From Enchytraeus crypticus (taxonomy: Eukaryota > Annelida > Clitellata > Enchytraeida > Enchytraeidae), in NCBI GenBank assembly GCA_905160935.1, contig CAJHZI010000710.1, positions 1 to 64,000 on the forward strand: a stretch of DNA of 64,000 nucleotides, read 5' to 3'. The translations under genes were made by a program, and so were the position numbers. The notes beneath the pieces were generated by a model, which saw only the letters and a program-made list of their open reading frames with translations, had not been told where the DNA came from and did not search any database. Shown piece after piece: positions 3,363-55,904 of the stretch. The stretch's first letter is position 1. Each line of letters opens with the position of its first letter.

Positions 3363-3716
3363 TTACCTAGGCACTAACACACATACAGGCCCACACACAC
3401 ACACGCACCTGTGCACTGACAAGCAGCTGGAAGGCCGATGCACACACACATACACACACACACACACATGCACACACACCTGTGCACTGACAAGCAGCTG
3501 GAAGGAAGATGCACACACACACACACACACAAGCACACACACACACAAGCACACACACACACAAGCACACACACACACAAGCACACACACACACGCACAC
3601 TTGGGCACTGAGAAGCAGCTGGAAGGCCGATGCACACACACGCATATACTCACACACACACACATACACACGCGCACACACCTGTGCACTGACAAGCAGC
3701 TGGAAGGCCGATGCAC
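3363..3716. repeat. CA-rich array carrying copies of TPC1 exon 10 end
   Basis: (CA)n-type repeat with four copies of a 33-35 base block: the last codons of TPC1 exon 10 plus its donor. The extra copies are near 3408-3444, 3480-3513 and 3602-3634. Confidence 0.9.
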
Positions 3717-3798
3717 AAGCTCTACGACGGTGCAGCCAAAGTTTGCGCAGCTTTTGCTTCTCATATTTCATGAACGCACTGTACACCACCGCCAGAAA
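3682..3798 (-). CDS. TPCN1: TPC1 exon 10: end of IS6 and start of cytosolic linker
   Basis: 39 whole codons (residues 326-364), opening FLAVVYSAFMKYEKQKLRKL and ending AFQLLVSAQ, matching the LLLAVVFDTFNDIEKRKFKSL...LLHKRT region of vertebrate TPC1. The acceptor is a TTG-rich tract ending GCAG; the donor is CAG|GTGTGTG. The last 33 or so exon bases and the donor are copied three more times in the CA/GT-rich array immediately downstream (3406-3640), so the true donor is one of four look-alikes. I chose the one contiguous with the exon. Confidence 0.85.
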
Positions 3799-4030
3799 CT
3801 GCAACAACAACAACACGAGTGCTACCATCGTCAATGACAACATAGAGAATCATAGTCAAAAATTGTCATGTACAGACTAAAGCTTTGTCAAGTCATAGAA
3901 AGTCTTTGTCAAAGAAAAGAGATCTCTCGCTTATCTCCGGTTTGTTCAGTAATAAGTCTGCCTATAACTTTAATGAAGGCAACTCTAAAATTATTACTAT
4001 TATTTTAAATTTTACAGCGAACAGTTAACT

Positions 4031-4160
4031 AGTAAAAAAGCTAATATTAACGTCTGTTTTCTCACTCAAAAGCGATGTCAGTGACGGGCGAGCCCAAGAT
4101 TTGAACAACGCACATACTGATAAGCAGTCGAATATAATACCGACATAGCCACTGGCTTCC
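4031..4160 (-). mobile_element. SINE-A
   Basis: Minus-strand copy with AGCGATGTCAGTGACGGGCG and a degraded B-box (CAAGATTTGAACAA). Confidence 0.85.
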
Positions 4161-4179
4161 AATCGTTACATATAGACTA

Positions 4180-4440
4180 ATATAGTTGCATATACTGGGA
4201 ACTGTATTAAGAAATAGGAAGAAGAGTTGGATAGGACACATCCTAAGGTGGGAAGGTCTATTAAAAGAGGTCATAGAAGGTAGAATGGAAGGAAAAAGAG
4301 GCAGGGGCAGGCCGAGATTAGGTATGTTAGATGATTTAAAGACCCACGCATATGTGGAAATGAGGAGGAAAGCGGAAGACAGAGAAGAGTGGCGGTGTTC
4401 TATACCATAAACCTGCCAGTAGGCAGTACATTGCATTTCA
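4180..4440 (+). mobile_element. LINE-C 3' end (ORF2 C-terminus)
   Basis: Encodes WIGHILRWEGLLKEVIEGRM then GKRGRGRPRLGMLDDLK and VEMRRKAEDREEW, a C-terminal block common to animal non-LTR retrotransposon ORF2 proteins. The 3' tail is CCTGCCAGTAGGCAGT. Confidence 0.85.
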
Positions 4441-4479
4441 TTGTATAACATGGTAATGTATTATGCTGCATTCACTGTA

Positions 4480-5022
4480 CTGTAAATACAATGAAGAGTC
4501 ACGCAAAAGATTCATCATTTTATTGTATTGTATTGTATTGCAAATTGTGTTGTAAATACAATGATGCACAATATTCATCATTGTATTATACTGTATTGTA
4601 GTGTATTGCATTATGTTGTACGGTATTGGATTGTATTGTATTGTATGGTATTGTACTGTATTGTAATCTATTGTATTGTGTTATACTCTATTGTACGGTA
4701 CTGTATTGTACTGTACAGTACTGTACTCTACTGTACTGTACTGTGTTGTAAGTACAAAGGTGAGCACGCATAAGATTCATCATTGTACTGTACTGTACTG
4801 AGTTGTAGATACAAAGGTGAGGACGCACAAGGTTCATCATTGTACTCTATTGTACTGTACTGTACTGTACTGAACTGTGTTGTAGATACAAAGATGAGCA
4901 CGCACAAGGTTCATCATTGTACGCTATTGTACTGTACTGTACTCTACTCTACTCTATTGTACTGTACAGTACTGTACTGTGTTGTAGATACAAAGAAGCA
5001 GCACACACAAGGTTCATCATGA
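4480..5022. repeat. Array copying TPC1 exon 9 donor end
   Basis: TATTGTACTG-rich repeat interrupted about every 60-100 bases by GTTGTA-x-ACAAAG...CACAAGGTTCATCAT blocks. On the minus strand that block is the end of exon 9 (ATGATGAAC) and its donor. Copies lie near 4490, 4545, 4750, 4805 and 4885, plus the exon. Confidence 0.85.
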
Positions 5023-5108
5023 GGAAGAGCTCAATGCAGATGTAGACTATGAAGAAGATGGCGATCCATCTGTTCTTAGCATAGGCTGGCATCATCACGT
5101 CAGGAAAA
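5009..5108 (-). CDS. TPCN1: TPC1 exon 9: pore helix, filter I and IS6
   Basis: Encodes residues 293-325: FPDVMMPAYAKNRW then a hydrophobic IS6 ending LFLMMNL. Together with exon 8 it forms TSANFPDVMMPAY, the domain I filter and pore signature of TPC channels (TTANFPDVMMPSY in vertebrates). The acceptor is TTTGTGTAG. The donor GTGTGTGC follows the CTT codon, and this choice restores the family spacing MNL-x-LAVV across to exon 10. The donor end is amplified in the array at 4480-5022. Confidence 0.9.
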
Positions 5109-5129
5109 CTACACAAACAGGTCCATCAA

Positions 5130-5245
5130 CGATTAATAGCCAATTAACGATCAATTAACAGTCATTTAACGATCAATTAACGATCAATTAACAGTCAATC
5201 AACGATCAATTAACAGTCAATTAACGATCAATTAAATGTCAATAT
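5130..5245. repeat. ATCAATTAACAGTCA array
   Basis: About eight short units (AACGATCAATT / AACAGTCAATT) just upstream of the TPC1 exon 9 acceptor. Confidence 0.85.
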
Positions 5246-5346
5246 GATCCCATATCTCAGAACAATATATTGATATATTCAGGCTACTCAATGCTCCGTT
5301 ATTTGCCAAAATTTGTACTTTATATTGATCCTAAGGACTACTAGGG

Positions 5347-5530
5347 CATAACTCATTGGCAAAGTGGTTAGCAAGACGAATATTGTCACAACAGATTGAG
5401 GAGTTTTGGTTTCTAACCCCAGACTAGATCATTATTTAAATAACACCAGCACAACTTAAGGTTGACGTAAGATCATGGACAAAGAACTTGAATTAACACA
5501 AGTTAGGATCTATAGCTCAAGATAACATTA
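5347..5530 (+). mobile_element. SINE-C
   Basis: Good A-box (TGGCAAAGTGGTTAGCA) and B-box (GGTTTCTAACCCC) 55 bases apart; different body from SINE-A and SINE-B. One copy only here. Confidence 0.65.
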
Positions 5531-5553
5531 ATAGCTTCATAGGCTCCACTTAC

Positions 5554-5612
5554 TTTGCACTGGTCATGAGTATAAACATGTTGACAAAACTCATCGTCAA
5601 GTCTTTGAAAAA
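5554..5612 (-). CDS. TPCN1: TPC1 exon 8: pre-pore segment of domain I
   Basis: 59 bases, phase 0 in and 2 out, residues 273-291 plus a split Asn: FFKDLTMSFVNMFILMTSA. It corresponds to YFSTLENSIVSLFVLLTTA of vertebrate TPC1. Acceptor TTGTTGCAG and donor GTAAGT are both strong. Too short for an ordinary ORF search; found by walking the family alignment. Confidence 0.88.
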
Positions 5613-5640
5613 CTGCAACAAAAATACAACAGAAACAAAA

Positions 5641-5768
5641 TTAATATCACAAGATTAATATCACAAGATTAATATCACAAGATTAATATCACAAGATTAA
5701 TATCACAAGATTAATATCGCAGATTAATATCACAAGATTAATATCACAAGATTAATATCACAAGATTA
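5641..5768. repeat. 15-bp array
   Basis: Nine copies of AGATTAATATCACAA, 30 bases upstream of the TPC1 exon 8 acceptor. Confidence 0.95.
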
Positions 5769-5944
5769 GGCAGAAATTCAAATTACATAAAATAAGATAT
5801 ACAAGCTAAATTAGGAGGAGCTGCATATATTTATTTTATTTAGTTATTATTAAATCAATTCAGACATGTTCGACGAATTTAATGAATTTAAAAAATATAA
5901 AAGTCCTAGCGAATAAAAGTAATTAATGAAAAAATGAATTGAGT

Positions 5945-5976
<32 letters not shown>

Positions 5977-6134
5977 ACTATGTTTATTTTTTTAAACACT
6001 CAAATATGAAATAATACACACTAGGCCGTCAAAGAGGTTATAAAAGCCTATCTAGTTGATCACCCATCATGCATACAAAAAAATTCATAATAAAAAAATT
6101 TGCAAACTAAAAATGAAAAATGAACATCTATCTT

Positions 6135-6406
6135 GGTGAAATGAATTCACATTACGTTTCAGTGAATAAAAGTATGAATGAAATGAATTCACATTACGTT
6201 TCAGTGAATAAAAGTATGAATGAAATGAATTCACATTACGTTTCAGTGAATAAAAGTATGAATGAAATGAATTCACTTTACGTTTCAGTGAATAAAAGTA
6301 TGAATGAAATGAATTCACATTACGTTTCAGTGAATAAAAGTATGAATGAAATGAATTCACATTACGTTTCAGTGAATAAAAGTATGAATGAAATGAATTC
6401 ACTTAC
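6135..6406. repeat. 42-bp array starting at TPC1 exon 7 donor
   Basis: About six and a half units containing AATGAATTCACATTACGTTT. On the minus strand each unit carries GTAATGTGAATTCA, a copy of the exon 7 donor region GTAAGTGAATTCA. The 42-bp unit keeps frames open on both strands; I regard these ORFs as by-products. Confidence 0.95.
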
Positions 6407-6441
6407 TAAATTGTCTGGGTCACCAGAGAACAAATAGAAAC
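6407..6441 (-). CDS. TPCN1: TPC1 exon 7: 35-base exon after IS5
   Basis: Micro-sized exon encoding GFYLFSGDPDNL (residues 261-272, first codon shared with exon 6). It aligns with GFYLFSPNPSDP of vertebrate TPC1. The acceptor is GTGTTGTAG and the donor GTAAGTG, and the phase fits both neighbours. The array at 6120-6406 starts exactly at this donor. Confidence 0.85.
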
Positions 6442-6734
6442 CTACAACACAAGCACAAGTGATCTATTAGCTAACTACTCAATCAATACACAGAAGGATA
6501 AAATTTCTGTAAAACTCAGAACAGAAACAATTTCATTTAACTAGAAATCTACAGGACTGTTGTGATCTACAACACGTAGGCTGAAAACATCATCTGTCAG
6601 AAGGTCTTTCACTCCGCAAATGTTCTGTAGTAGTCAACCGATCAAGGAAGGAATGGAATATTTAATTAATACGAGTTACGCTAGTTAGATAGGAGTTAAG
6701 AGACTCTGGCAGGCATTGACAGGCTGTAGGAGAA

Positions 6735-6975
6735 TGTCTAAATAGTGTAAGGGTAAATGTCAGGAAGTTTTAAATGACAAATCCTGAGGTGAATTGAACC
6801 CTCGTGGGTTCGAATCCCGGTCGCGTTGATCTGAGAGTAAAATCTCGGACATTCACTGGACTGATTACACGGAAAATGGTCTAAATTGCCTAACGGATTA
6901 AACATATGGTTTTAAAAGTGATAAATATCAACATAGTTGATCATTCACTATAATGCGTGTTTACTTTTACTATTT
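6735..6975 (+). mobile_element. SINE-B, 5' degraded
   Basis: Shares the body with 14762 and 17168 (GTGGGTTCGAATCCC B-box; GAGTAAAATCTCGGACATTC; GTTGATCATT...CACTATAATG). Confidence 0.85.
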
Positions 6976-7327
6976 TAGGAGTTACAGACTTGGTTCTGAT
7001 TGACTTGACAGAACATCAAATCAAAATCTATCAGTTGCTTTGTTTCAAAACCCTAATTAGAGAGATGATTTCTTTCTCAGTCAATTGTTCAATCGATCAA
7101 TAACTAAAATCAATCAATCAGGGTTTTCAGACAGATCTTTTAACAATGACTCAGAAGTAATATATATACTGGACAGAATTGTCACGTAATCGACATCTGA
7201 CGTGCTAAATAGCAAATATTACTATGATTGCTATCAAAGCTGTTATTACTAATAATAGTTTTGATAGTTGACACGTTTATGATCTATAGATTATTATAAG
7301 CAGTCAAAGAAGAGAAACAACAGATAC

Positions 7328-7416
7328 CTAGCATGGAGAAGAGTAGAATAAAGAACATGAGTAGCACCAGCATGTCTAGCATAGGAGGAAGAGACTGTAT
7401 CATCTGTCGTATAAAC
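7328..7416 (-). CDS. TPCN1: TPC1 exon 6: IS4-S5 linker and IS5
   Basis: Residues 232-260, reading FIRQMIQSLPPMLDMLVLLM then FFILLFSML. It matches [20 protein letters not shown] of vertebrate TPC1. Acceptor GTGTAG|G completes the split Arg of exon 5; the donor is CTAG|GTATCT. The first 58 or so bases are duplicated upstream at 7503-7559 within CA-rich repeats; the duplicate has lost the frame, so I treat it as a decayed copy. Confidence 0.88.
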
Positions 7417-7680
7417 CTACACATGCAAACACACATACATGCACATATACACATAAACATACACATACACATACATACACACACATACATGCACACACAC
7501 ATGAGTAGCACCAGCATGTCTAGCATTGGCGGCAGTGACTATCATCTGTCGTATAAAACTACTCATACAAACACACATACATACACAGACACACATACAC
7601 ACACACATACATATCACACACACACACAGATATACATGCACACACATACATACACATACAAACACACACACACAAACATA
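7417..7680. repeat. CA-rich array with decayed TPC1 exon 6 copy
   Basis: ACACAT/ACATAC-type repeats on both sides of a second copy (7503-7559) of the first 58 or so bases of exon 6. The copy differs by several substitutions and short indels that shift the frame. Confidence 0.9.
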
Positions 7681-7897
7681 CTAAAGAGCTCATATTAATG
7701 CACACAATAAATCTTTAAATATTAATATTTTGCAAACATCACTCAATTCATAATCAACAGAGAATACCTACATAATGTCTTCAATAAGAAATTGCTTAGT
7801 ACATATTCTAAACTGACCTCATGTACTATTTACATATCAACCAGTGCTGACCCAGTTTAGCTTAACCACGTTTAGAATCAATCAATTAATAGCCAAC

Positions 7898-8028
7898 CTT
7901 CTTGCCCCACGACAGTAGTATGTGTCGAGAACAAAGAACGGTCGTAGAGCCCTCGTTATCCTGATGTGATTGGTCTGCCGACTAATAACCACTATGGCTT
8001 CCACGAACATTATCACCAGGATCATAAG
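7898..8028 (-). CDS. TPCN1: TPC1 exon 5: IS3 and the voltage-sensor helix IS4
   Basis: Residues 188-230: LMILVIMFVEAIVVISRQTN, then HIRITRALRPFFVLDTYYC with the spaced arginines of S4. Vertebrate TPC1 has FVEAIVVLVRQMSHVRVTRALR at this place. The acceptor is TTGTTGTTACAG. The first 40 or so exon bases plus the acceptor are tandemly copied about 12 times between 8029 and 8830. The donor is AAG|GTTGGC, somewhat weak. Confidence 0.88.
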
Positions 8029-8830
8029 CTGTAACAACAACAACATATCAAGTGTTACCACTATGACTTCTATGAACATTATCACCAGGATCATAAGCTG
8101 TGACAACAACATATCAAGTGTTACCACTATGACTTCTATGAACATTATCACCAGGATCATAAGCTGTGACAACAACAACATATCAAGCGTTACCACTATG
8201 CCTTCTATGAACATTATCACCAGGCTCATAAGCTGTGACAACAACAACATATCAAGCGTTACACCTAGGATCATAAGCTGTGACAACAACAAATATCAAG
8301 TGTTACCACTATGACTTCTATGAACATTATCACACAGGAGCTGTGACAACAAAACATATCAAGGTTACCACTAGGACTTCTATGAACATTATCACCAGGA
8401 TCATAACATATCAGGTTACCACTTATGCTTCTACAAATCACCACGAATAAGCACAACACAACATATCAAGTGTTACCACTATGACTTCTATGAACATTAT
8501 CACCAGGATCATAAGCTGTGACAACAACAACAGATCAAGTGTTACCACTATGACTTCTATGAACATTATCACCAGGATCATAAGCTGTGACAACAACATA
8601 TCAAGTGTTACCACTATGACTTCTATGAACATTATCACCAGGATCATAAGCTGTGACAACAACAACATATCAAGTGTTACCACTATGACTTCTATGAACA
8701 TTATCACTAGTATCATACGCTACAACAACAACAACAACAACATATCTATAGTTTTCACTGTGACTTCTAGGAACATTATCACTAGAATCATAAGCTACAA
8801 CAACAACAACGAATCGATTGTTACCATTAT
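8029..8830. repeat. 69/66-bp array of TPC1 exon 5 acceptor plus exon start
   Basis: About 12 units, each carrying on the minus strand a TTGTTGTCACAG acceptor and about 40 bases of exon 5 (LMILVIMFIEVIVV), then a short intron-like spacer. Units of 69 or 66 bases keep the frame. A degenerate segment at 8255-8460 interrupts the open stretch. Confidence 0.95.
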
Positions 8831-9149
8831 ATGATCTTTATTCACCAGAATACATGGCAGTATGAACAGAACAGAAATAATTCAGAATAGAAATATAGGC
8901 TTATAGTAAATAATTTATAGATTTGTTCGGAGAGTAATATTAATAATTACTATTATTATTATTTTAGAAATATATAAAAATGCATGCATAATATTACATG
9001 TGCAATAAAATCAATATGATCTTTATTCAACAGAATACATGGCAGTATAAACAGAACAAGAAGTGCAGAATAATGAGCGAACCGAATAACAGAAACTACA
9101 GATTAACTATGACTATGGCTAAAGTTCTATGAACATAAAGTTTATATCA

Positions 9150-9250
9150 GGCAGTTCCATGTTATATAACGCCTCCACTCATCTCTGTCAACCACTTTCC
9201 TCTTCTTGTCCACATACGAGTGGGACTTTAAATCAGTTGGTAAAACTTTT
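9150..9250 (-). mobile_element. LINE-C 3' fragment
   Basis: Short reverse-strand fragment matching the 3' coding end of LINE-C (ATATAACGCCTCCACTC, ATACGAGTGGGACTTTAAAT). Confidence 0.7.
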
Positions 9251-9364
9251 CATGTAACTTATATAGTAGAAACAGGTGCATATTCTTCACATTTAAACAG
9301 CAGCACGTCATCACACTTAGTGGTATTAATGCAAATATCTTGAAATAGAATAATTAAATTTAAT

Positions 9365-9560
9365 TCAACAAAAATTAATGAACAATATTATTATTAATAT
9401 AATAATAATAAATAATAATAATATTATTAATATTATTATAATAATTAATAATAATAATATTATTAATATTATTATAATAATAAATAATAATATTATTAAT
9501 ATTATTGTAAAAATAAATAATAATAATATTATTAATATTATTATTACATAATATTATTGA
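9365..9560. repeat. AATAATATTATT palindromic array
   Basis: Pure A/T repeat whose units are themselves palindromic; lies in TPC1 intron 4. Confidence 0.9.
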
Positions 9561-9600
9561 AATAGCAGCTTATTGGAATCGTCAGTAACTTCTTACACAC

Positions 9601-9714
9601 CTTAATCATGGTTCTAATGTGTCGTAGGAATAGTCTCACACCCAGCCATCGTAGCCTCAGCATCAGCTCTATAGCTATCGTTGTGAGAAATAGTAACTCC
9701 AACGAAGCATGCAC
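9601..9714 (-). CDS. TPCN1: TPC1 exon 4: IS2 segment
   Basis: 38 whole codons (residues 150-187) containing VHASLELLFLTTIAIELMLR and LRWLGVRLFLRHIRTMIK. It aligns without gaps to vertebrate TPC1 (YVHATLELF ... LRWLGLHTFIRHKRTMVK). Acceptor TTTGACGCAG, donor AAG|GTGTGTAAG. The exon is unusually clean: no array touches either end, although an AT-palindromic repeat lies 40 bases past the donor. Confidence 0.9.
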
Positions 9715-9821
9715 CTGCGTCAAACAAATTACGTCGTCCATGATGACATAGATCTATGAAATATGTCCACAGTTCAATGCCAATAGTTCAGTTCCACTAC
9801 AGCAATAATAGTAATAATAAT

Positions 9822-9885
9822 ACTAAAGGTTTAACGTCCGTTTCCTCATCCAGGGATGGTGTCAGTGACATTTGGGTACAATATA
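9822..9885 (-). mobile_element. LINE-A 3' tail fragment
   Basis: AACGTCCGTTTCCTCATCCA then GGATGGTGTCAGTGAC, reverse of the LINE-A terminus seen intact at 58500-58555. Confidence 0.65.
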
Positions 9886-9902
9886 CCCATTATATGACTA
9901 AA

Positions 9903-10020
9903 AGCTGGTAAAGCTAAGATTAGTGTCAGTTTCCATACTCAAAAGTGATATCAGTTACAGGCAAGCCCAGGATTTGAACCCTGCACCATCTGATCCGTGG
10001 TTGAATATCTTACTAGATGT
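9903..10020 (-). mobile_element. SINE-A
   Basis: Minus-strand copy (GCCCAGGATTTGAACCCTGC). Confidence 0.85.
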
Positions 10021-10104
10021 ACTGATTTACTATACATCTCACTGATCAGGTTGTTAGACCGGCTCATCAGTAGAAAAGTGGAGTTGTAAGGCCAATGTTA
10101 ATTT

Positions 10105-10280
10105 AGTCAATTAGTTAGTTAATTAGTTAGTTAGTTATTTAGTTAGTTAATTAGTTAGTTAGTTATTTAATTAGTTAGTTAGTTAGTTAGTTAATTAGTT
10201 AGTTAATTAGTTAGTTAGTTATTTAATTAGTTAGTTAGTTAGTTAATTAGTTAGTTAGTTAGTTAATTAGTTAGTTAGTT
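10105..10280. repeat. TTAG array
   Basis: (TTAGTTAGTTAA)n, next to the exon 3 donor array. Confidence 0.95.
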
Positions 10281-10469
10281 TCAAGAACAGATATAGGGAG
10301 AGGGACACATACCTATATAGAGAGAGAGAGAGAGAAACATACAGGTATGAGAAGAGAGACAAACAGATACAGAGAGAGACACATACAGATATGCAAGAGA
10401 GACAAAAAGATACAGGGAGAGACACATAGATATAGACAGAGACACATACAGATACAGAGAGAGACATAC
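10281..10469. repeat. About 22-bp array of TPC1 exon 3 donor
   Basis: On the minus strand the units read CTCTCTGTATCTGTATGTGT, copying the exon 3 junction CCTATATCT|GTATGT about eight times. Confidence 0.9.
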
Positions 10470-10646
10470 AGATATAGGGAGAGAGAGATGATTGACGGAG
10501 GGCTCTTCAAACAGCGCCAGACAGAGCAAGGCTAGTGAGGCGAGGAATGTGAAGATGTAGAACCACACGTTATGTGTTATGAGATACGCCGGCACGTCTA
10601 ACTGACTCCTGGGATGTGTGCTAAACTTGTCGTTGTTCTCTCCTTC
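10470..10646 (-). CDS. TPCN1: TPC1 exon 3: N-terminal cytosolic end and IS1
   Basis: 59 codons (residues 91-149): EGENNDKFSTHPRSQ, then AYLITHNVWFYIFTFLASL, then LFEEPSVNHLSLPIS. Vertebrate TPC1 reads EGENNDKFFTHPKDAKAL...AYLFAHNHLFYLM, and this exon-3/exon-4 join keeps the spacing exactly. Acceptor ATGCTAG|GAAGG, donor TCT|GTATGT. Both ends are flanked by arrays that copy the splice site. Confidence 0.9.
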
Positions 10647-10835
10647 CTAGCATCACATAACATCACATCACATAAAATCACATAGCAACACATAACATCA
10701 CATACCATCACCTAGCATAATATCACATAGCATCACATAGCATCACATAGCAGAATATCACATAAAATATTACGACATAGCATTACAGCATAATAACACA
10801 GCATAATATCTCACGGCACCACATAGCATAATATA
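10647..10835. repeat. CATCACATAG array at TPC1 exon 3 acceptor
   Basis: Minus-strand units ATGTGATGCTATG repeat the exon 3 acceptor ATGTGATGCTAG. Confidence 0.85.
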
Positions 10836-11478: not shown

Positions 11479-11633
11479 CTGCAGAAAGATGGCCGCCTCG
11501 CGGTGATTCAGCTCCCATCTCTTTTGATTTATAATCTCCTCGTCCTCAAATCCTTCCATCTCAGGCAGTGATGAGTCATGTAGGTAGTAGTTCTCCAGGT
11601 TACCCACCCGGTGAACCACTTCTGCCTCTGAGC
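11479..11633 (-). CDS. TPCN1: TPC1 exon 2: acidic N-terminal cytosolic segment
   Basis: Residues 40-90, including SSLPEMEGFEDEEIINQKRW and ELNHREAAIFLQ. The last part is the WEMNYQEAAIYLQ motif that precedes EGENNDKF in TPC1 proteins. Acceptor AACGTCAG, donor CTGCAG|GTGTGA. GC content is higher than in the flanking introns. No array touches it. Confidence 0.9.
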
Positions 11634-12625: not shown

Positions 12626-12639
12626 TCCTTCTTCTTCAG

Positions 12640-17473: not shown

Positions 17474-17516
17474 GAGGTCAGGTCATTAACACGCACTGCT
17501 CGGCCTCTCACAATAG
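17474..17516 (+). CDS. fng: Fringe exon 3
   Basis: 43 bases encoding GGQVINTHCSASHN plus a split Arg; matches NVVITNCSAAHSR, with its conserved Cys. The acceptor is the tandem CAGGAG, so a version starting at 17477 and lacking one Gly is equally possible. The donor is AG|GTTTGAA. Confidence 0.88.
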
Positions 17517-19626: not shown

Positions 19627-19800
19627 GTGGGTTTAGCTGTCAATCAAACATCATTTAGCTGTCAATCAAGCGTCATTTAGCTGTCAATCAAAAGTCATTT
19701 AGCTGTCAATCAAATGTCATTCATTATTAACATAGCCTGGCTTTCAAGATGTCTCATTGTATTGGTTGGATTTAACTGTCAATCAAACATCTTTCGAAAT
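19627..19800. repeat. Fringe exon 6 donor-side duplication
   Basis: Four TTTAGCTGTCAATCAAA units follow the donor. Then a diverged copy of the exon end plus donor region (TAGCCTGGCTTTCAAGATGT at 19735) is followed again by GTCAATCAAACAT. Confidence 0.9.
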
Positions 19801-20046: not shown

Positions 20047-20117
20047 GAATGGTAATCTTAGCACAGTCTGCAGTATGACACGCCTGCCAGATGACTGCTC
20101 CATTGGATATATTGTGT
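20047..20117 (+). CDS. fng: Fringe exon 7 with the LPDDC motif
   Basis: Residues 231-253: NGNLSTVCSMTR then LPDDCSIGYIV. Vertebrate Fringe has RLPDDCTIGYIV, which carries the catalytic-base Asp region. Acceptor TTTTTTAG, donor GTGT|GTAAGT. The donor and last 12-15 exon bases are reiterated in a 39-bp array that starts here and keeps the frame open to 20483. Confidence 0.95.
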
Positions 20118-20445
20118 GTAAGTGTCACGTCACACGTCTCATAGGATTTGTTGTGTTTAAGTGTCATGACACACCTCTCATAGGATATATTGTGGTTAAG
20201 TGTCATGTCATGCCTCTCGTAGGATATGTTGTGATTAAATGTCATGTCGCACCTCACATAGGATTTGTTGTGTGTAAGTGTCATGTCACACCTCTCATAG
20301 GATATATTTTGTTTAAGTGTCATGTCACACCTCTCATAGGATATATTTTGTTTAAGTGTCATGTCACACCTCTCATAGGATATATTGTGTGTAAGTGTCA
20401 TGTCATACCTCTCATAGGATTTGTTGTGTGTAAGTGTCATGTCAC
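20102..20445. repeat. 39-bp array of Fringe exon 7 donor end
   Basis: About nine units, GTAAGTGTCATGTCACACCT then CTCATAGGATATATTGTGT. Each has an acceptor-like CTCATAG|G and a donor-like GTGT|GTAAGT. Confidence 0.95.
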
Positions 20446-20800: not shown

Positions 20801-20983
20801 GTTGTTGTTGTTGTTTATGACATACTGTTGTTGTTTCATGACATACGGTTGTTTCATGACATACTGTTGTTGTTTCATGGCATACTGTTGTTGTTTCATG
20901 ACATACTGTTGTTGTTTCATGGCATACTGTTGTAGTTTCATGGCATACTGTTGTTGTTTCATGACATACTGTTGTTGTTTCAT
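20801..20983. repeat. About 21-bp array at Fringe exon 8 donor
   Basis: GTTGTTGTTTCATGACATACT repeated about eight times directly from the donor GTTGTTG. Confidence 0.92.
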
Positions 20984-21125
20984 GGCTGGAGCCAGTGGTG
21001 ATGTCGGTAAGACACTCGACCGCGGATCAGTTTGTGCGGGGTTCAAATCCTGGGCTTTCCCGTCGCTGACATCGCTTTTGGGTGAAGAAACTGACGTTGA
21101 CATTAGCTTTACCAGCCTTTTTTGT
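20984..21125 (+). mobile_element. SINE-A in Fringe intron 8
   Basis: Close to consensus: GATGTCGGTAAGACACTCGA, GCGGGGTTCAAATCCTGGGC. Confidence 0.92.
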
Positions 21126-47145: not shown

Positions 47146-47204
47146 GAAATTTATTTGTGTGTGCACTAAGATCTGCCTAGCTCTGGCTGCAAAACCATAT
47201 CTCA

Positions 47205-47445: not shown

Positions 47446-47449
47446 TAAA

Positions 47450-48475
47450 AACATGTAAGTAAATGAAACTTCGCAAATTTTATAAATATATATATTTATT
47501 GCTAACATATTTTATATGTTGTAACACATTTGTGTCCTGATCTACAACGCCATCGTTCAAAAGTTGTTGTTGTTGTTGTTCATATTTGTATGTATTTCAG
47601 GTCTCACTTCAGATCGGTAACTTCTAAAGTTCTGCATTCCTCCAAAGTTCTAAGTTTTAAACCTGCTACGCAGCAGCTGATTTAAGATATTCACACTTCA
47701 CCTCTAAGTATATACAAGAACTTTACCAGAAGAAAGGATACTTGCGATAGGACATAACCTCTATTGGAATTGTATATGTGGGCCTTAGGGTCTTCTAAAT
47801 TCTCTTTAGGATATATACGAGAACTGGCGTAGAAAGATACGAAGACTTAAAGAACTGATTGAAGAACATTTGAGCGATGCCCACTAAAGGTATTTCTTCA
47901 TCAGAGTTCATTTTTACGCTTTTGGTATTAATAATACAAAGTTTTTTTAATTCCATGCCATTAGCATTTCTTATTGCTATATTCGTGTTAATTTATTTGT
48001 GTTAATCTTAAATTAATTAATTCAGTAAATTAAATTTATTTCTAATTAATTTAGTTTAGTAAATTTTTCCGGCTTTGAACACTACCGTTCGCAAATCTTC
48101 TTCATAATTTCTCGCAACAGTCGATATTCATTTCGTCAATGTTTTCACGCTTAATAAATTGCAACCATTAATTCCGTACAATTTTTACCTAGATAGAAAT
48201 CGGTTAAAACTGAGTGGGTGGTTTTCCTGAAATTTTCCGGAGAAGTGATAAGTGATTGGGCACAAGATATGTGAGCGCAAGTGAATCAGTTGTCAACAGC
48301 TCAGAGTAACAGCTGTACAGTTACTCCACTGCTTCGACACGAGGAGTTCTTGTATAGGCGGCTGATCGAAAATCCAAATTACCCACTTTACCTTAAATTC
48401 AAACTGTCAAATATAAAAGACTAACTACTATGTAAAATTTCTTCCTCTAATACAAAACATTAATTATTAAAATAT
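47450..48475. other. No gene seen
   Basis: AT-rich; the mildly GC-richer stretch 48220-48370 could be regulatory or a 5' UTR for Pax6 but has no diagnostic feature. Confidence 0.35.
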
Positions 48476-48479
48476 CATT

Positions 48480-48735
48480 AATATGCCAATACTATGACAC
48501 ACCATACCACTGCATACTATGCTATTTCATAGAACACGGTATCGCTGTATACTATGTTGTACTTTGACACACCATACCACTGCATACTATGCTATACTAT
48601 GGCATACCGTACCGCTGCATACTATGTTGTACTATGGCATACCGTACCGTTGCATACTATGCTATACTATGGAATAACGTACCGCGGTATACTATGATGT
48701 ACAATGATATACGTACCGCTGAATACTAATTGTAT
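48480..48735. repeat. About 46-bp array
   Basis: Five diverged units of CTATGGCATACCGTACCGCT and GCATACTATG. Confidence 0.88.
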
Positions 48736-48884
48736 GTTGAACAGCATACAATTAATTAATAATAATTACAAGCAGCAGAAAACTTAGTTGAAGAAATTCC
48801 TCGTTAAAAAATTCTAATTTTAAGTTGTTTTCTTTGCTAGCTTCTGGATACCCTCAATACGATTAATTGATTTTATTGTTTGAT

Positions 48885-49120
48885 TGATTGTGTCCCCGTG
48901 TTCTGTTCGGGTTGTTTGAAGAATAGACCAACCGTGTATGCTCGTGTCGTAGAAGGCGACATTAAAACTAGATCCAAACCAACGTCAGAAAGGCATTCGG
49001 TTGGTGAGCGCCTAGGTTCCAGAAATTGCTACAAAAACTAAAACGAATGGATCAAGTCTATTCGTATCCCGATCCTAGTTAAACTGGAATTTAAGGAAAT
49101 ATGATGATGATGATGATTAT
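48885..49120 (+). mobile_element. R5 dispersed repeat
   Basis: CGTGTTCTGTTCGGGTTG, GAATAGACCAACCGTGTATG, GGTGAGCGCCTAGGTTCCAG, GATGATGATGATGAT end. Confidence 0.82.
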
Positions 49121-49325
49121 GATGATGATTGTTTGATTGACTGATCGATTAATCAATTCATTAAATTTGGATTGATTAATAAATTGATTAGTAGATTGAT
49201 TGATTTGAAGGATTGATTTGATTGGTTGAATGATTTATTGAATGAATAATTGATTTATTGAAGGATTGATTGATTGATTGTTTAATTGATTGACAGACTG
49301 ATTGATTGATTGATTGATTGATGAC
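49121..49325. repeat. (GATT)n-like array
   Basis: Imperfect TTGATTGATTGA units ending 18 bases before the Pax6 start codon. Confidence 0.95.
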
Positions 49326-49343
49326 TCAGACGACGACTGCCAC

Positions 49344-49476
49344 ATGACGTCACGAGGCTCTTGCTCGGCAGTGGGTGGGATGTCAGCAGGTGGGGGCCTG
49401 GGGGCGGATAACAACAACACAGACAAGAGCAAGGCCCGGCCTAAACGAGGTGAGGGGCGCGCTGATAGCGATCCAG
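49344..49476 (+). CDS. Pax6: Pax6 leader exon with two in-frame donors
   Basis: First coding exon of the Pax6 model. From ATG 49344 it reads MTSRGSCSAVGGMSAGGGLG, then NNNTDKSKARPKR. An in-frame TGA (49311) lies upstream, and this is the first ATG of the frame. There are two phase-1 donors: CGAG|GTGAGG after 49449 and CCAG|GTGAGA after 49476. Both join in frame to the paired-box exon (R/P-Gly-HSGVNQ); the longer form adds nine residues. N-terminal leaders of Pax6 are poorly conserved, so the link rests on phase, position and GC content. The (GATT)n array at 49090-49325 runs up to its 5' side. Confidence 0.65.
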
Positions 49477-49636
49477 GTGAGACTGGCCTGGAGACCCTGG
49501 ATAGTAGATCCAGGCACCTAGGGGTCTAGGCCCTTTAGTTAAGTCTTAGGGGGCCTATGCCCTAAGTAATAAATTATACTAATTCTAGTTTAGAATAAGA
49601 AGGGTCCATAATCAATATCAATCAATTAATAAGAAT

Positions 49637-49760
49637 TTAACCAACGGTTCCTCGCCATAAAGCAATGTCAGGGACGTCCCTTGCAGACTCTACCCAAACA
49701 GGCACCAAAGCACCACATGATGACGACTGAGTACACAGAGACCACAAGAGAATGCGAGAT
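49637..49760 (-). mobile_element. LINE-A 3' end
   Basis: Reverse of 58440-58555: CAATGTCAGGGACGTCCCTT, CACATGATGACGACTGAGTA. Confidence 0.85.
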
Positions 49761-49774
49761 AAAGAAATAATGTG

Positions 49775-49920
49775 ACCTTCACTTATCTTGGGTTGAGTCC
49801 GGATCTTGTTAGCATGTTGTTCGACAGTGGATCAGTAGGTGCAGGGTTCAAATCCAGAGCTCTCCCCGTCACTGACTTGCTGTTCGAGCAGGAAACAGAC
49901 GTTATACTTGGCTTTTGCCC
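49775..49920 (+). mobile_element. SINE-A variant
   Basis: GTTCGACAGTGGATCAGTAG, GCAGGGTTCAAATCCAGAGC; same subfamily as 23608. Confidence 0.82.
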
Positions 49921-50261
49921 TTGTAATTTTCGACGTATGTATAACAGATTCGGAATTTTGGTGACCTTTTGATACGTTCTGCCGAATTTCAAAGTTTGTA
50001 CTTCAGTTCTTATTTCCTATTGTACAAGTTCTGAGAAACTGATGTACACAAACACTTTAAAAAGTTATCTCAAAAAGATTTTCTATTGTTCAGCTTTCTA
50101 CTTACTGTTGTTTTATGTCGGTTATTTTATTTTATGTTATTTTATATCATCTAAAACTCATTTATGTGTTATTTTATGTTTTCTTAAACTCTTTGATGTT
50201 GTTTTTTGTTTTACAGTGTTATTTTAATTGCTATTTTTTACTATTTTATGTAAAAAGCAAA

Positions 50262-50405
50262 TAAAGCTAAAACTAAGCTTAATGTCAGTTTCTTCCCTCA
50301 CTCTAAAACGATGTCAGTGACGGGAGAGCCCATGATTTGAACCCCGCACATACTGATCCGCGATCGAGCGATCGAGTATTTTGCCGACGTCGCCACTAGC
50401 TCCAG
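50262..50405 (-). mobile_element. SINE-A
   Basis: Full-length copy with a small GATCGAGC duplication in the head. Confidence 0.9.
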
Positions 50406-50880
50406 CCATTCCTTTATTAATTTGGCCACAGCATTCGATTAATTTTAATAGCATTCAAAAAAGTCTCTTTTTAAATGAGAGATGATTAACTTAGATGAAG
50501 CAAAGCATGATATTAACAATATTGCTTCAATCAGTTTATGTACTTTGAGAAATTTAAAAGCAATTGGAATTTCAATTTCAACTAATATCGTACTACATAG
50601 AAATTTTGATGGAGCATAATTTAGATATTTAAATTGTTTCAATTGATTTACGTCACATAAATTAATTAATATCTTTAATTCTAACAAAGCATCACAATTA
50701 TTACAAAATGTATCGCTATTTAAGAAGTAATTCTAATTTTCCATACGAAGATTATTTCAGTGATAAATACACTACTTTATGAAAATTATGAGCTAATATT
50801 GTAACTTATCAAATACGTCTTACCATTACTTCTGTATAATTTAGCATATTTGATTTAGCATATGTGACTTCTTATTTTTA

Positions 50881-50990
50881 GATCACAGTGGGGTGAACCA
50901 GTTATCACTTATCATTTTCTCTTATCGCACAGGTCACAGTGGAGTGAATCAGTTATCACTTATCATTTTTTCTTATCGCACAGGTCACAG
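50881..50990 (+). repeat. 51-bp tandem duplication of Pax6 paired-box acceptor
   Basis: Three starts of the sequence ATCACAGTGG/GTCACAGTGG (50882, 50933, 50984), each immediately after an acceptor (TTATTTTTAG or TTATCGCACAG). Unit of 51 bases is in frame. Confidence 0.95.
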
Positions 50991-51330
50991 TGGAGTGAAT
51001 CAGCTGGGAGGGGTGTTTGTGAACGGACGTCCCCTGCCTGACTCCACTCGTCAGAGGATAGTCGAGCTCGCCCATAGCGGGGCTCGACCCTGCGACATCT
51101 CGCGCATTCTCCAAGTCTCTAACGGCTGCGTCAGCAAAATCCTCGGCCGTTACTACGAGACCGGGTCCATCCGCCCACGAGCCATTGGGGGGAGTAAGCC
51201 CCGGGTAGCGACCCCCGATGTGGTGGGTAAGATAGCTCAGTACAAGAGAGAGTGCCCCTCGATATTCGCCTGGGAGATCAGAGATCGGCTGATCTCAGAG
51301 GGGTTGTGCACCCATGACAACATCCCCAGC
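50984..51330 (+). CDS. Pax6: Pax6 paired-domain exon
   Basis: 347 bases encoding 115 residues of the paired domain: [20 protein letters not shown] at the N-terminal beta hairpin, then [20 protein letters not shown]. The I-Q-N triplet in that recognition helix is the Pax4/6 specificity signature (Pax2/5/8 have Q-R-H). It then runs to LCTHDNIPS. Pax6 is the transcription factor at the head of eye and anterior neural programmes. The acceptor ATCGCACAG|GT is the last of three near-identical acceptors 51 bases apart. The donor AGC|GTAAGTACTG is the first of about nine copies in an array. GC content and codon use stand out sharply from the introns. Confidence 0.97.
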
Positions 51331-51700
51331 GTAAGTACTGTTTTCTGAGTATTTGTGATGGCATGCACAGTGTAAGTACTGTGCTCTGAGTATTTGTGAC
51401 AACATGCACAGTGTAAGTACTGTGCTCTAAGTATTTGTGATGACATCCCCAGTGTAAGTACTGTGTTCTAAGTATTTGTGATAACATCCTCAGTGTAAGT
51501 ACTGTGCTCCAAGTATTTGTGATAACATCCTCAGTGTAAGTACTGTGCTCTAAGTAATTGTGATGACATCCCCACTGTAAGTACTGTGCTCTAAGTATTT
51601 GTGATAACATCGTCACTGTAAGTACTGTGCTCTAAGTATTTGTGATAACATCCTCACTGTAAGTACTGTGTTCTAAATACTTGTGACGATATTCACAGTA
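51315..51700 (+). repeat. 41-bp array of Pax6 paired-box donor
   Basis: About nine units of CATCCCCAGTGTAAGTACTG with TGTGCTCTAAGTATTTGTGA. The first unit is the true exon end (ACAACATCCCCAGC|GTAAGT). Confidence 0.95.
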
Positions 51701-51884
51701 CTACATTCTGAGTACTTATGATTAGCAAGTTAAGAGTGAACTGAACACTCAGTATTCTCATATTCTCATTTACTAGTTACTTTAGAAAATCGCCTGCTGA
51801 AGCTTTGGATAAATTATGTTAAATTGTCAGCATATTCTAATGATTTAAGTAATATTAGTGATAGATATTTAAAAATTTCTGACT

Positions 51885-52245
51885 GTTCTCACACGACCTG
51901 GTTATGGTTGTGATGGTTGGTAGATTGTATGTTCTCACACGACCTGGTTATGGTCGTGATGGTTAACGGGTTGTATGTTCTCACACGACCTGGTTATGGT
52001 CGTGATGGTCGATGGGTTGTATGTTTTCACACGACCTGGTTATGGTCGTGATGGTCGATGGGTTGTATATTCTCACACGACCTGGTTATGGTTGTGATGG
52101 TTGACGGGTTGTATGATGTCACACGACCTGGTTATGGTCGTGATGGTTGACGGGTTGTATGTTGTCACACGACCTGGTTATGGTCGTGATGGTTGACGGG
52201 TTGTATGATGTCACACGACCTGGTTATGGTCGTGATGGTTGGGGT
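51885..52245. repeat. 45-bp array with hairpin core
   Basis: Eight units; each has CACACGACCTGGTTATGGTCGTG, an ACGACC/GGTCGT stem with a seven-base loop. Confidence 0.95.
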
Positions 52246-52794
52246 GGGATTGAGATGAGATAGGGGAGAGGGATGCTAGATGTAGCAGTGGGGGTGGATG
52301 CTGAAGAGAATTATTTGTTCATTAGTTGTCCATCTGTTTGTATCTCCTCTCATCCGTGAACTTCTGATAAATTACTCCCTCCTTTCTCTCCTCTCACTCT
52401 CTCACTTCATCCGCTCACTGAGTGCAGAGTGCAAGCCTTGTTATAGCGGTAGGTCATTCCTACGTTACATCCACCCTAGATATTGAAACAGACGTTAAAG
52501 TCGTATTACTATTATTGAGTATAAGTATTATAGACAGTTATCGTTTGATATTTTAATTTGGCTTTTAAGTTTTCTTTTTTCTTTACGCCTTGGAGAATGT
52601 AATATTACGGTTATCAGCTTGATAGAAGATAGGAAGAGATAGAACAGCATTTCTTGTAGTGCATCACGTTTGACAAATCTGTCATTCTATAATACAGCAC
52701 AGCATTCATATCACATATATAATTATTCTATATATGTGATATACATGCGTATCACATATATATTCTATATACTTGATATGCATGTATACATTCT

Positions 52795-52925
52795 TTATTT
52801 TACATTCTCTCTCTTCAGCGCATGTTTTTCAGGTCGTTTGAGGTGAATCGATTTGTGGTAACATGTGATAGGAGACGTTCCTGACATCATCCTTTTATGA
52901 GGAAACGGACTATCGTCCGTTTAAA
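52795..52925 (+). mobile_element. LINE-A 3' end
   Basis: TCTTCAGCGCATGTTTTTCA, GGAGACGTTCCTGACATCAT, ATGAGGAAACGGAC. Confidence 0.8.
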
Positions 52926-53205
52926 AAATGCATATCACATATACTTACATATCACGTAGTTATCATATACACATCACATACACGTACCTATCACATAGTT
53001 ATGACGTACACATTATTAGTTATCACATACACATCATATACACGTATCTATCACATAGTTATGACGTACACATCACATACATATCACACATACGTATATA
53101 TAACATAGTTATCATGTACATATCACATGCATATCGCATACATAGGCATTCACATAACATATCACATCACGTTACAAACATATCACTTATATAACACATA
53201 CATAT

Positions 53206-53244
<39 letters not shown>

Positions 53245-53465
53245 TATTACTATTATATATATATGTACATATCACTTATAGAACACATACATTTCACATA
53301 CATATCACTTATATAACGCATACATATCACAAACATACCACATGTATTGTGTACATAGCACATACACATCACATACACATCACGTACACATCGCATACAC
53401 TTCACATAAATATCACATACAAATCACATACACTTCACATACACATCACATACACATCACGAGCC
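52926..53465. repeat. ATCACATACAC array with central (TA)n
   Basis: Irregular CATATCACATACA units; (TA)n at 53205-53245. Confidence 0.93.
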
Positions 53466-53605
53466 GGTCTAACGACATACCCTGACTTACACACAGGATA
53501 TGGTTATGGTAGCAGGAAGTCCCAATCATTACTTCCTATCCCTGTGAGAGACCCGGACGTTACCCGGGGCGTGTGCTGTATAAACGAAGAACTCTTGATA
53601 TAGTT
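53466..53605 (+). other. CpG-rich patch with an open frame, unexplained
   Basis: Frame TTYPDLHTGYGYGSRKSQSL then LPIPVRDPDVTRGVCCINEE to a TAG. It lies in Pax6 intron 2 but its phase does not fit the flanking exons (phase 0 needed). Possibly a transposon scrap or an exon of another transcript. Confidence 0.25.
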
Positions 53606-53944
53606 CTCTATCAACTCTTTGTAACTCTTTGCTCTATTTACCCATCAACTGATGATAGAACGCTGCCTCAGGTTGTGCTTAATTGAATCTTCCCTCCTCT
53701 GGAATAATTTATATCAATAAGTCAACACTAGTGGTGACAATTCAGAACCCGTAAAGGACTATTGCAGCAAAATAAAGCACTACTTAAATAAATACATTTC
53801 TTGTAACAAGTTGTTGTAGTATAATTTCTTGTCGTATATCTTGACGTAGGCCTATGTTGTAGTTTTTAAGCTCAGAAGACCTCGGAAAACTACTTTATAA
53901 AATATGTTTTTCTCTAAGCTGGCCTACTAAGCTGGTTTTCTTAG

Positions 53945-54095
53945 TGCGGGCCTTCGAAAGGTCTGTGTAAGGCAAAAACTTTCGCGAAGGGATTAACTTG
54001 TTGATCTATGGAGGTCTTTTATGGAGCGAAAAGCAGAGGCTGAGTATGAAGATGTACCTTGGACCTGCCACTTGGCAGAACACTAGAGAGAGAGA
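53945..54095 (+). mobile_element. R4 dispersed repeat, 3' part
   Basis: GCGAAGGGATTAACTTGTTG, GACCTGCCACTTGGCAGAAC then GAGAGA. Confidence 0.8.
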
Positions 54096-54294
54096 GAGAG
54101 AGAAAAATAAGCGAAGAATATTTCTCTTGTCTCACAGCTGCTTCCTATAACAGTAAACTCTCTTACTGAACTTGTTACTTGATCATCTTGACTTGTCTCC
54201 ATGACGTTCTGGACATTTCAACAGTCTTGAAGTAATATGATATGTAATTTATATGCGCGGTTTCTAATGTTCTCCACACAATACGGAACCTTTC

Positions 54295-54560
54295 ATTGCG
54301 GGATTTTTAGTGCGAGGTTTTAGTGCGGGATTTTTAGTGCGAGGTTTTAGTGCGGGATTTTTAGTGTTTTTGGTGCGAAGTTTTTAGTGCGGGATTTAGT
54401 GCGGGGTTTCAGTGAGGGATTTTTAGTGCGGGGTTTTAGTGCGGGGTTTGTAGTGCGAGGTTTTAGTGCGGGATTTTTAGTGCGGGGTTTAGTGCGGGGT
54501 TTCAGTGAGGGATTTTTAGAGCGGGGTTTTTAGAGCGGGGTTTTTAGTGCAGGGTTTTTA
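54295..54560. repeat. 13/14-bp array TTTTTAGTGCGGGG
   Basis: About 18 units of GGGATTTTTAGTGC and variants. Confidence 0.95.
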
Positions 54561-54895
54561 ATGTTCTCCACACAACACATAATTCTTCAGTCCTTTGCTT
54601 TTCATTTTGGTGTTTTGCTCTGACTGGATATTGATCACGTGATTGATGGACCCGGCATGTTAACAGATGTTACATTGCATCTCATTGACTTCTAGCGGCG
54701 TAACAACAACAACAACTGCTCAGTGGAAATAGCGTAGACTAAGAGAGATCTATGTGGTCCAGTCCTCTATCAATCAATCCTACAGAAATCTTTATAAAGC
54801 GCAGTCTTAACAATAGCTCAGATGCGCTTTGTGGAGAACCAGTAGAAAGTAGGCCTAGTCCTGTAAATAAATAGATAAATAAAGAGCATACGAGG

Positions 54896-55037
54896 TGGCA
54901 AAAACTGGTAATATTAAAGTTTGCGTATTTTCCTCACTCGAAAGCGATGTCAGTGACGGGGAGCCGAGGATTTGAACCCCGCACATACTGATCCGCGGTC
55001 GAATATATTACCGACATAGCCACTGGATACAGCCACC
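54896..55037 (-). mobile_element. SINE-A
   Basis: TCCTCACTCGAAAGCGATGT, GGATTTGAACCCCGC, GACATAGCCACTGG. Confidence 0.9.
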
Positions 55038-55182
55038 ACTTCTCTGTTGGGCCTGAGTGTTCCCAGTGTTCCAGAAATCAATTGGATGAGTCCACAAAGA
55101 TCAGTGAGAAGCAAACCTTCACCCTACGGGAACAAGGTTTCTGATGCAGTTTCCTGGAAAGCATCTAGTCACAGTTAATAGT

Positions 55183-55400
55183 CTATATGATTAGATGTGC
55201 TATAAGTGGACTAAAGATAGGACTTAGATGTGCTATAAGTGGACTAAAGATAGGACTTAGATGTGCTATAAGTGGACTAAAGACAGGACTTAGATGTGCT
55301 ATAAGTGGAATAAAGATAGGACTTAGATGTGTTATAAGTGGAATAAAGATAGGACTTAGATGTGTTATAAGTGGAATAAAGATAGGACTTAGTTGTGCTG
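55183..55400. repeat. 33-bp array
   Basis: Six to seven units of AGATGTGCTATAAGTGGACT with AAAGATAGGACTT; an in-frame unit length of 33 keeps a frame open. Confidence 0.95.
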
Positions 55401-55540
55401 TAGATGTAAATAGACATGATGGGCTCTAAATATATATACATGTAGATTAAATGTGATTTAATACTACTTTACTACTTAATGACAAACACGGCACCTGTCG
55501 ACATTAAATTCTAATCTACCGCTTGGTTGCCATTTCTCAG

Positions 55541-55799
55541 GTTTCTTCAATCAACCGAGTATTGCGCAACCTGACGACAGAAACCCACAAGGGGCACCTC
55601 GGTCAGCCTCAGATGTACGACAAATTTGGATTATTTGGGGGTCAGGCTTGGCACAGGGCTGCGACGAACCCCTGGTACTCCACGCCCGGGCACGGGGCGG
55701 CGGCCGCTGCGGCGATGGCGGCGGGGCTGGGCATGACAGGACAGGCTCAGATACCTCATCACCCCTCAAGCCTGCATCACGTGGCCGTAGAGAAAAAGG
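55541..55799 (+). CDS. Pax6: Pax6 exon: end of paired domain and start of linker
   Basis: Residues VSSINRVLRNLTTETHKGHL complete the third helix of the RED subdomain. MYDKFGLFGGQAW and NPWY follow, the MYDKLGLLNGQAW...NPWY linker block known from lophotrochozoan Pax6. An Ala/Gly-rich stretch and VAVEKK come next. Acceptor ATTTCTCAG; the donor AAAAAG|GTTTGT is inferred from phase. A poly-Ala run (seven Ala broken by one Met) is encoded by GCG/GCC-rich codons. Confidence 0.93.
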
Positions 55800-55904
55800 G
55801 TTTGTTGATTAAGAGTATTGTTAATTAAGACTATTGTTAATTAGACTAAGGGTTAGTTAATTAAGACTATTTTTAATTAAGACTATTGTTTCCTATGAGC
55901 AGTT
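55800..55904. repeat. TTAATTAAGACTATT array, left part
   Basis: Begins at the donor of the Pax6 linker exon; interrupted by a LINE-B insertion and resumed at 56141-56385. Confidence 0.9.

Follow-up and report, generated by a model that had tools for sequence, protein, structure and literature searches.

Tandem arrays at splice junctions, probably of the amphioxus mirage type, in a genome of apparently spiralian origin

Mirages in amphioxus and the arrays described here

In amphioxus, tandem duplications of exon-intron boundaries, known as mirages, have been described in Adh3, in the globin genes BflGb6 and BflGb9, in troponin C and in PGBD5 (PMC3087553, PMC3902484). These reports describe units of 10-160 bp at 5' or 3' exon ends, with AG or GT in many of the copies, length differences both between haplotypes and somatic, and a model in which introns are gained from mirages (PMC3087553, PMC3902484). 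Arrays of this type left splicing undisturbed, as judged by reverse transcription PCR (PMC3087553). Here we describe arrays with this placement in a window of 64,000 nt (positions 1 to 64,000 of contig CAJHZI010000710.1, the whole stretch analysed) and in other genes of the same genome. The window contains parts of three animal genes: TPC1 (minus strand; matched to PDB 6c96), Fringe (matched to PDB 2j0a) and Pax6 (assigned by comparison with the human sequence).

The initial annotation of the window knew of no described family of arrays placed in this way, but the amphioxus mirages have just this placement. As in amphioxus, units here span the exon-intron boundary (at 8 of 46 junctions in the window and 23 of 124 outside it), both donors and acceptors are involved, and AG or GT is mostly kept (72 of 85 copies). 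Beyond what those reports describe, the share of junctions affected is measured here (31/170), and a strand-specific (TGAT)n repeat at acceptors is added. It is concluded that the arrays are probably mirage-type minisatellites, an already known kind, in a lineage that is probably new for them. No report of mirages outside lancelets was found in the literature searched, which was seen in part and with most subscription journals beyond reach.

The lineage was judged mainly from the mitochondrial contig (C802, 15,205 bp), whose cox1 reads with genetic code 5. One strand carries nad3, an nad2-type gene (Pfam Proton_antipo_M; called nad2 by size and place), cox1 and cox2, and the open reading frame after cox2, which has no Pfam match, was taken as atp8. 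The order nad3-nad2-cox1-cox2-atp8 is known from chitons and phoronids, and is not known from amphioxus. This comparison suggests that the host is a spiralian and not a chordate, so that mirages would be extended to another lineage. A putatively Pox-neuro-like paired domain at locus L023 also speaks against a chordate. Separately, nine nuclear matches to COX1 were seen (contigs C796, C361, C424, C435, C373, C166, C637, C205 and C121), all partial and stop-containing, with 42-62% identity to the human query; they are perhaps old mitochondrial insertions.

Two further systems are related. In the Rogers model of intron gain by tandem genomic duplication, for which the potato RdRp gene is a reported case (PMC4974935), the duplication likewise takes in splice signals, whereas here existing introns acquire decoy copies. 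The metallothionein genes of an annelid, the earthworm, have intronic minisatellites and extra exon-4 copies that are missing from the final transcript; junction-spanning units are not stated in the part of that report available (PMC12783039). Ordinary intronic micro- and minisatellites are also relevant, given that the same types of array fill the introns here, but the junction-spanning ones exceed the expectation for array edges. The introns of the Pax6 paired box are presumably at the human intron positions, and are therefore probably not new.

Excess of arrays at splice junctions

Exon ends were set first by eye and then with a spliced protein-to-DNA aligner written for this analysis, and the two were concordant at most junctions. 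From the aligner came a Fringe micro-exon (17477-17516), the placement of the TPC1 donor near 5554, and a different donor for the TPC1 exon at 10470-10646, which was adopted (another possible donor, at 10496, is weaker). Tiny aligner exons that were doubtful, being small or ambiguous, were excluded by hand before the first outside test, at a time when only the array coverage of loci L009-L028 was known. The hand-set list for the window comprised 43 junctions; addition of the donor near 5554 and the micro-exon gave the final 46, a mixture of hand-set and aligner-set junctions.

Arrays are common in this genome. Tandem Repeats Finder (TRF) gave 97 merged arrays in the window at a score of 40 (17,333 of 64,000 bp) and 81 at a score of 50 (16,764 bp, 26%). 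At the latter score, arrays occupied 25,192 bp in a 200-kb sample made up of DNA around other Pax loci and the remainder of the window contig (13% once 5,000 N are set aside). In the remaining gene loci they took up 11,803 of 56,900 bp (21%). With arrays over 26-27% of the window, chance overlap with a junction is not rare, and an edge-based question was therefore used. Array edges within one unit were tested, and not rotated array positions, because arrays cannot run through exons.

In the TRF edge test, a junction is positive if an array edge lies no more than one unit from it. In the straddling test, 20 junction bases (12 exon and 8 intron) must recur, with at least 15 of the 20 alike, on the intron side at a distance of up to 600 bp, and be absent on the exon side. 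The final null uses per-gene rates and replaced an unstratified one; for the straddling test only, the expectation was also corrected for the DNA added by the arrays themselves.

Within the window, 11 of the 46 junctions were positive by TRF edges against 4.4 expected (P = 0.0035), and 8 by straddling against 3.05 (P = 0.0098), or against 3.94 after correction (P = 0.039). The 43 hand-set junctions gave 11 against 3.1 by TRF edges (P = 1.9e-4) and 7 against 2.4 by strict straddling (P = 0.009). The excess within the window is thus two- to threefold, and the window alone is moderate evidence. The initial annotation held that random placement would rarely produce such overlaps; the placement is indeed non-random, but the rarity was overstated, given that 3 to 4 of the 46 are expected by chance.

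The non-random placement was also found at 124 junctions outside the window, in the same genome (524,188,772 bp, 802 contigs), at loci picked for gene conservation and not for arrays. The 15 stretches were the 3' part of Pax6, a Pax6-like paralog, four other Pax loci, EEF2, two beta-catenin genes, two GNB1 genes, a GNB5-like gene and three GSK3 genes; the fetched loci L010-L017, L020-L023 and L027 contained no counted junctions. VCP is usually very conserved, but a VCP query gave no match above 60% identity in this genome (32 of 394 candidates were scored, so that one was possibly missed), and VCP was left out of the sample.

The GSK3 genes on contigs C122 and C158 joined the sample once the result for the first 106 outside junctions was known, and figures before and after are both given. 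Before, straddling was found at 17 of 106 junctions against 6.5 expected (P = 2e-4). After, it was found at 23 of 124 against 7.7 (P = 2.5e-6), or against 10.3 when corrected (P = 1.9e-4), and TRF edges gave 19 against 8.9 (P = 0.001). With the unstratified null, straddling outside the window had at first given P = 3.6e-6; the per-gene rates and the correction for array DNA weakened that result. Omission of the array-rich beta-catenin gene on C416 left 18 of 108 against a corrected 7.7 (P = 5e-4).

Over all strata, 31 of 170 junctions (20 acceptors and 11 donors, so that both types of boundary are affected) were positive by straddling against 10.7 expected, a count reached in none of 400,000 simulations. 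The number expected rose to 14.25 after correction (P = 3.3e-5), and overlap was therefore not that of matched intronic positions, as it would be for randomly placed intronic satellites. TRF edges gave 30/170 against 13.3 (P = 1.5e-5), and a threshold of 17 out of 20 bases gave 26 against an uncorrected 8.7. The excess persisted when the pooled expectation was matched for GC content (9.7) or for sequence complexity (8.6), both uncorrected. The excess over matched intronic positions is thus about two- to threefold, and it is directly observed, as are the geometry of the arrays and the dinucleotides kept in most copies.

Anatomy of the junction arrays

At 8 of the 46 window junctions, the splice site and adjoining exon bases are repeated in tandem on the intron side (five in TPC1, one in Fringe and two in Pax6). 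A further five arrays only touch the junction, with a gap of 0-5 bp and no exon bases (TPC1 acceptor 10646 and donor 6406, Fringe donors 19626 and 20800, and the Pax6 linker donor 55799). Arrays are near but not touching at TPC1 acceptors 5612 (22 bp) and 5108 (23 bp) and at Fringe donor 21590 (12 bp). Fringe acceptor 18584 has, on our reading, a merely degenerate likeness to its array, and was not positive in any scored test. The initial description of arrays abutting or containing splice sites in three genes is partly confirmed, and its statement that most units include exon bases is true of 8 arrays out of the 13 that touch or span a junction. The arrays are listed in Table 1. The most evident are those at the acceptor of TPC1 exon 7898-8028, at the donors of TPC1 exon 3682-3798 and Fringe exon 20047-20117, and at both ends of the Pax6 paired-box exon.

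Table 1. Tandem arrays that span or touch splice junctions in the window
Feature	Coordinates	Strand	Description
TPC1 exon 3682-3798 donor array	3377..3717	-	71-81-bp unit: ~36 exon bases, donor, TG repeats
TPC1 exon 5009-5108 donor array	4580..5020	-	copies hold donor and last 12 exon bases
TPC1 exon 6407-6441 donor array	6137..6406	-	42-bp unit from donor GT on, no exon bases
TPC1 exon 7328-7416 acceptor array	7355..7646	-	142-bp unit, 2 copies; TG-rich repeat attached
TPC1 exon 7898-8028 acceptor array	7988..8830	-	69-bp unit, ~12 copies, acceptor and ~41 exon bases
TPC1 exon 10470-10646 donor array	10326..10486	-	~20-22-bp units including donor and ~15 end exon bases
TPC1 exon 10470-10646 acceptor-side array	10651..10768	-	end 4 bp from acceptor
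Fringe donor 19626 array	19632..19721	+	22-bp unit, begins 5 bp past donor
Fringe exon 20047-20117 donor array	20105..20445	+	39-bp unit, 8.7 copies, donor and end exon bases; GT kept in 3/8 decoys
Fringe donor 20800 array	20806..20984	+	21-bp unit, begins 5 bp past donor
Pax6 paired-box exon 50984-51330 acceptor array	50883..51003	+	51-bp unit, 2.4 copies, acceptor and 20 exon bases
Pax6 paired-box exon 50984-51330 donor array	51320..51686	+	41-bp unit; 8/8 decoy donors with GT; ~11 end exon bases
Pax6 linker exon 55541-55799 donor array	55802..55890	+	16-bp unit, begins 2 bp past donor

The number of exon bases in an array depends on how its edge is drawn. It is 62 by the TRF edge and 19 by extension for the acceptor array of TPC1 exon 7328-7416, 13 and 6 for the donor array of Fringe exon 20047-20117, and 11 and 0 for the Pax6 paired-box donor, where extension stops at once because the last exon base differs. 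For the donor array of TPC1 exon 5009-5108, TRF gave an extent of 4580-4980, and the exon-side copy was added from reading the sequence. Two similar open reading frames, both with GRGRPRLGMLDDLKTH, were also seen in the window (4186-4410 on the plus strand and 59840-60085 on the minus strand); on our reading they resemble the end of a retrotransposon frame.

For several arrays, the suggestion that they grew by duplication of the junction itself was borne out, in that the junction and exon bases lie inside the unit. In the copies seen, exon is joined to adjacent intron DNA, so that their source is genomic DNA rather than spliced RNA. Decoy copies were collected at 24 junctions where 28 straddling bases recur with at least 20 of the 28 alike, a set that excludes C122 and C158. 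As initially claimed, GT or AG is kept, in full in 72 of these 85 copies, with GT in 2 of 6 at one donor of the GNB1 gene on C580. Identity to the true junction per base is 0.918 for the dinucleotide, 0.85 for exon bases and 0.873 for other intron bases, an edge for the dinucleotide that is small and proves little, given that copies were chosen by similarity and are non-independent. No frame keeping was found among the 85 decoys, whose offsets modulo 3 (32/26/27) are as expected for DNA that is spliced out.

Array coverage was profiled by TRF around 152 junctions. On the exon side, arrays cover 11% and 7% of the 10 bases next to the junction, but about 1% of those 40-80 bp away, while they hold 12-33% of intron bases in bins within 160 bp. 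Relative to the gene mean, intron-side coverage starts at 0.71 within 0-10 bp of acceptors and reaches 1.35-1.37 at 20-80 bp; the corresponding figures for donors are 0.49 and 1.0-1.23. Exon bodies are thus strongly avoided by arrays, and splice sites only partly.

Origin and significance of the arrays

We consider it probable that these are mirage-type arrays, produced by frequent tandem duplication and tolerated at junctions because the exon-side copy would stay functional. The genome carries many tandem duplications, and some of them would span a splice junction. The copy adjoining the rest of the exon would stay a working splice site, while the other copies would turn into intron; the duplication would be tolerated because the exon-side copy remains in use. 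Further expansion would lead to a ladder of decoy splice sites, and arrays would be retained at junctions because deletion of a whole array would take the exon edge with it. We infer that the exon-side copy is the one used in splicing, and that the excess comes mainly from such retention, together with splice signals that are repeats themselves, and not from special cutting at splice sites. In favour of this explanation are the pooled excess, the genomic source of the copies, the even spread of decoy offsets over the three frames, the scarcity of arrays deep in exons, the array differences between GNB1 and between GSK3 paralogs described below, and the undisturbed splicing in amphioxus.

Several observations weigh against this explanation. 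The excess is uneven: no junction was positive in EEF2 (0/17), which has hardly any arrays, or in the four other Pax loci (0/16), and Fringe was positive at 1/18. It is smaller in some versions of the test, namely TRF edges at the first 106 outside junctions, before the two GSK3 genes were added (13 against 7.5, P = 0.034), and a sample with one gene, of our choice, from each of the beta-catenin, GNB1 and GSK3 sets (11/82 against a corrected 5.6, P = 0.022). Sharing of mirage junctions between paralogs was not above chance (6 against 4.3, P = 0.16), in a test with positives entered by hand and one TRF-only beta-catenin junction scored negative. Finally, retention alone gives by our estimate at most a twofold excess, and a bias in the birth of duplications may perhaps be needed.

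Such a bias is the essence of a mutational hot spot, in which transcription or splicing (through R-loops, nucleosome edges or conflict with replication) starts breaks or slippage at exon borders, so that more duplications are born there. This is the strongest of the alternatives, although we think it unlikely. It would fit the persistence of the excess after matching for GC and complexity, the array coverage of 1.0-1.4 times the gene mean at 20-160 bp from junctions, and the fact that at some GSK3 and beta-catenin junctions the paralogs carry mirages whose units differ, as at the exon-2 acceptor shared by the GSK3 genes on C122 and C158. Against it, sharing across paralogs was not above chance, and the excess is only two- to threefold.

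The paralogs also give a view of array turnover. Four exons were compared between the GNB1 genes on C580 and C465; their protein sequence is identical, but they differ by 6-15% in nucleotide sequence, and the two genes are therefore treated as paralogs. A 42-bp array with 5.1 copies and 19 exon bases lies at an acceptor on C580 and is absent from C465. Between the GSK3 genes on C575 and C122, every alignment that takes in 20 or more non-exonic bases lies in or beside the mirage array (blastn, E 1e-4, plus strand); to judge from this sequence comparison, the array seems to have outlived the remaining intron DNA, or else to have been exchanged. Arrays were compared between paralogs, which showed presence or absence in GNB1 and differing arrays in GSK3. 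For a comparison of haplotypes, no near-identical second copy of the Pax6 paired-box exon or of one Fringe exon was found in this genome.

Two side observations concern the same genes. In the GNB1 gene on C465 (locus L033), a stretch of 94 bp at 892-985, in the intron just past the donor at 837, is 90% alike to a segment of the exon that ends there. Several developmental and signalling genes are multi-copy, with three Pax6-type paired domains (C614, C421 and C343), two beta-catenins (C330 and C416), three GSK3 genes (C575, C122 and C158) and two GNB1 genes (C580 and C465), perhaps as a result of large-scale duplication.

A second alternative, to which we give somewhat less credence again, is selection for redundancy of splice signals, such that repeated branch points or splice sites aid exon recognition and the arrays are kept. 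In its favour, the 72 bp before the acceptor hold a sense-strand (TGAT)n run, 10 bases or longer, at 18/86 acceptors, against 4.3 expected on the basis of intron sequence in these genes (none of 200,000 simulations was as high), with 0/86 on the antisense strand. An earlier count gave 15/76. At donors the run was found at 2/84 on each strand, with 3.8 expected in sense. Genome-wide, GATTGATTGATTG is followed by CAG 664 times, by GCA 174 times and by AGC 343 times, AGC being a generous and unclean control since its A extends the repeat. TTGAT matches the YURAY branch-point consensus, and (TGAT)n or (TTGA)n repeats near acceptors may be branch points.

The 18 acceptors lie in loci L030, L031, L032, L033, L035, L037, L038, L028 and L009; 5 of them are in one beta-catenin gene, and the counted acceptors in the window parts of TPC1, Fringe and Pax6 contribute none. 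EEF2 has neither the acceptor repeat nor the junction arrays. Selection for redundant signals would also agree with the slightly better preservation of the dinucleotide described above, with the reservations given there, but less well with decoys that do not keep frame, or with the loss of GT from most decoys at some donors (kept in just 3 of 8 in Fringe, and in the 2 of 6 noted for GNB1).

With arrays so abundant, random placement could by itself supply 3 to 4 of the 46 window junctions, where the corrected P is just 0.039, but the outside sample (23/124 against 10.3, P = 1.9e-4) makes this explanation very improbable. Misjoined or duplicated reads are the least credible explanation of all, given that copies differ within arrays, that several contigs have junction arrays with different units, and that paralogs differ.

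A more general idea, which we put forward tentatively and consider doubtful, is that in this apparently spiralian genome splice sites arise and are replaced through tandem repetition, and evolve like satellites: about one fifth of the sampled acceptors have sense (TTGA)n runs as possible branch points, and nearly one fifth of the junctions have ladders. If this is true, the arrays here and those of amphioxus would be convergent products of rapid tandem duplication, and mirages would be an active means by which introns are gained and exon edges moved. The occurrence of mirages at 31/170 junctions, where 11 to 14 are expected by chance, in an apparently unrelated lineage would offer a genome-wide measure of competition between nearly identical splice sites, of the origin of duplications at exon edges, and of the model of intron gain from mirages.

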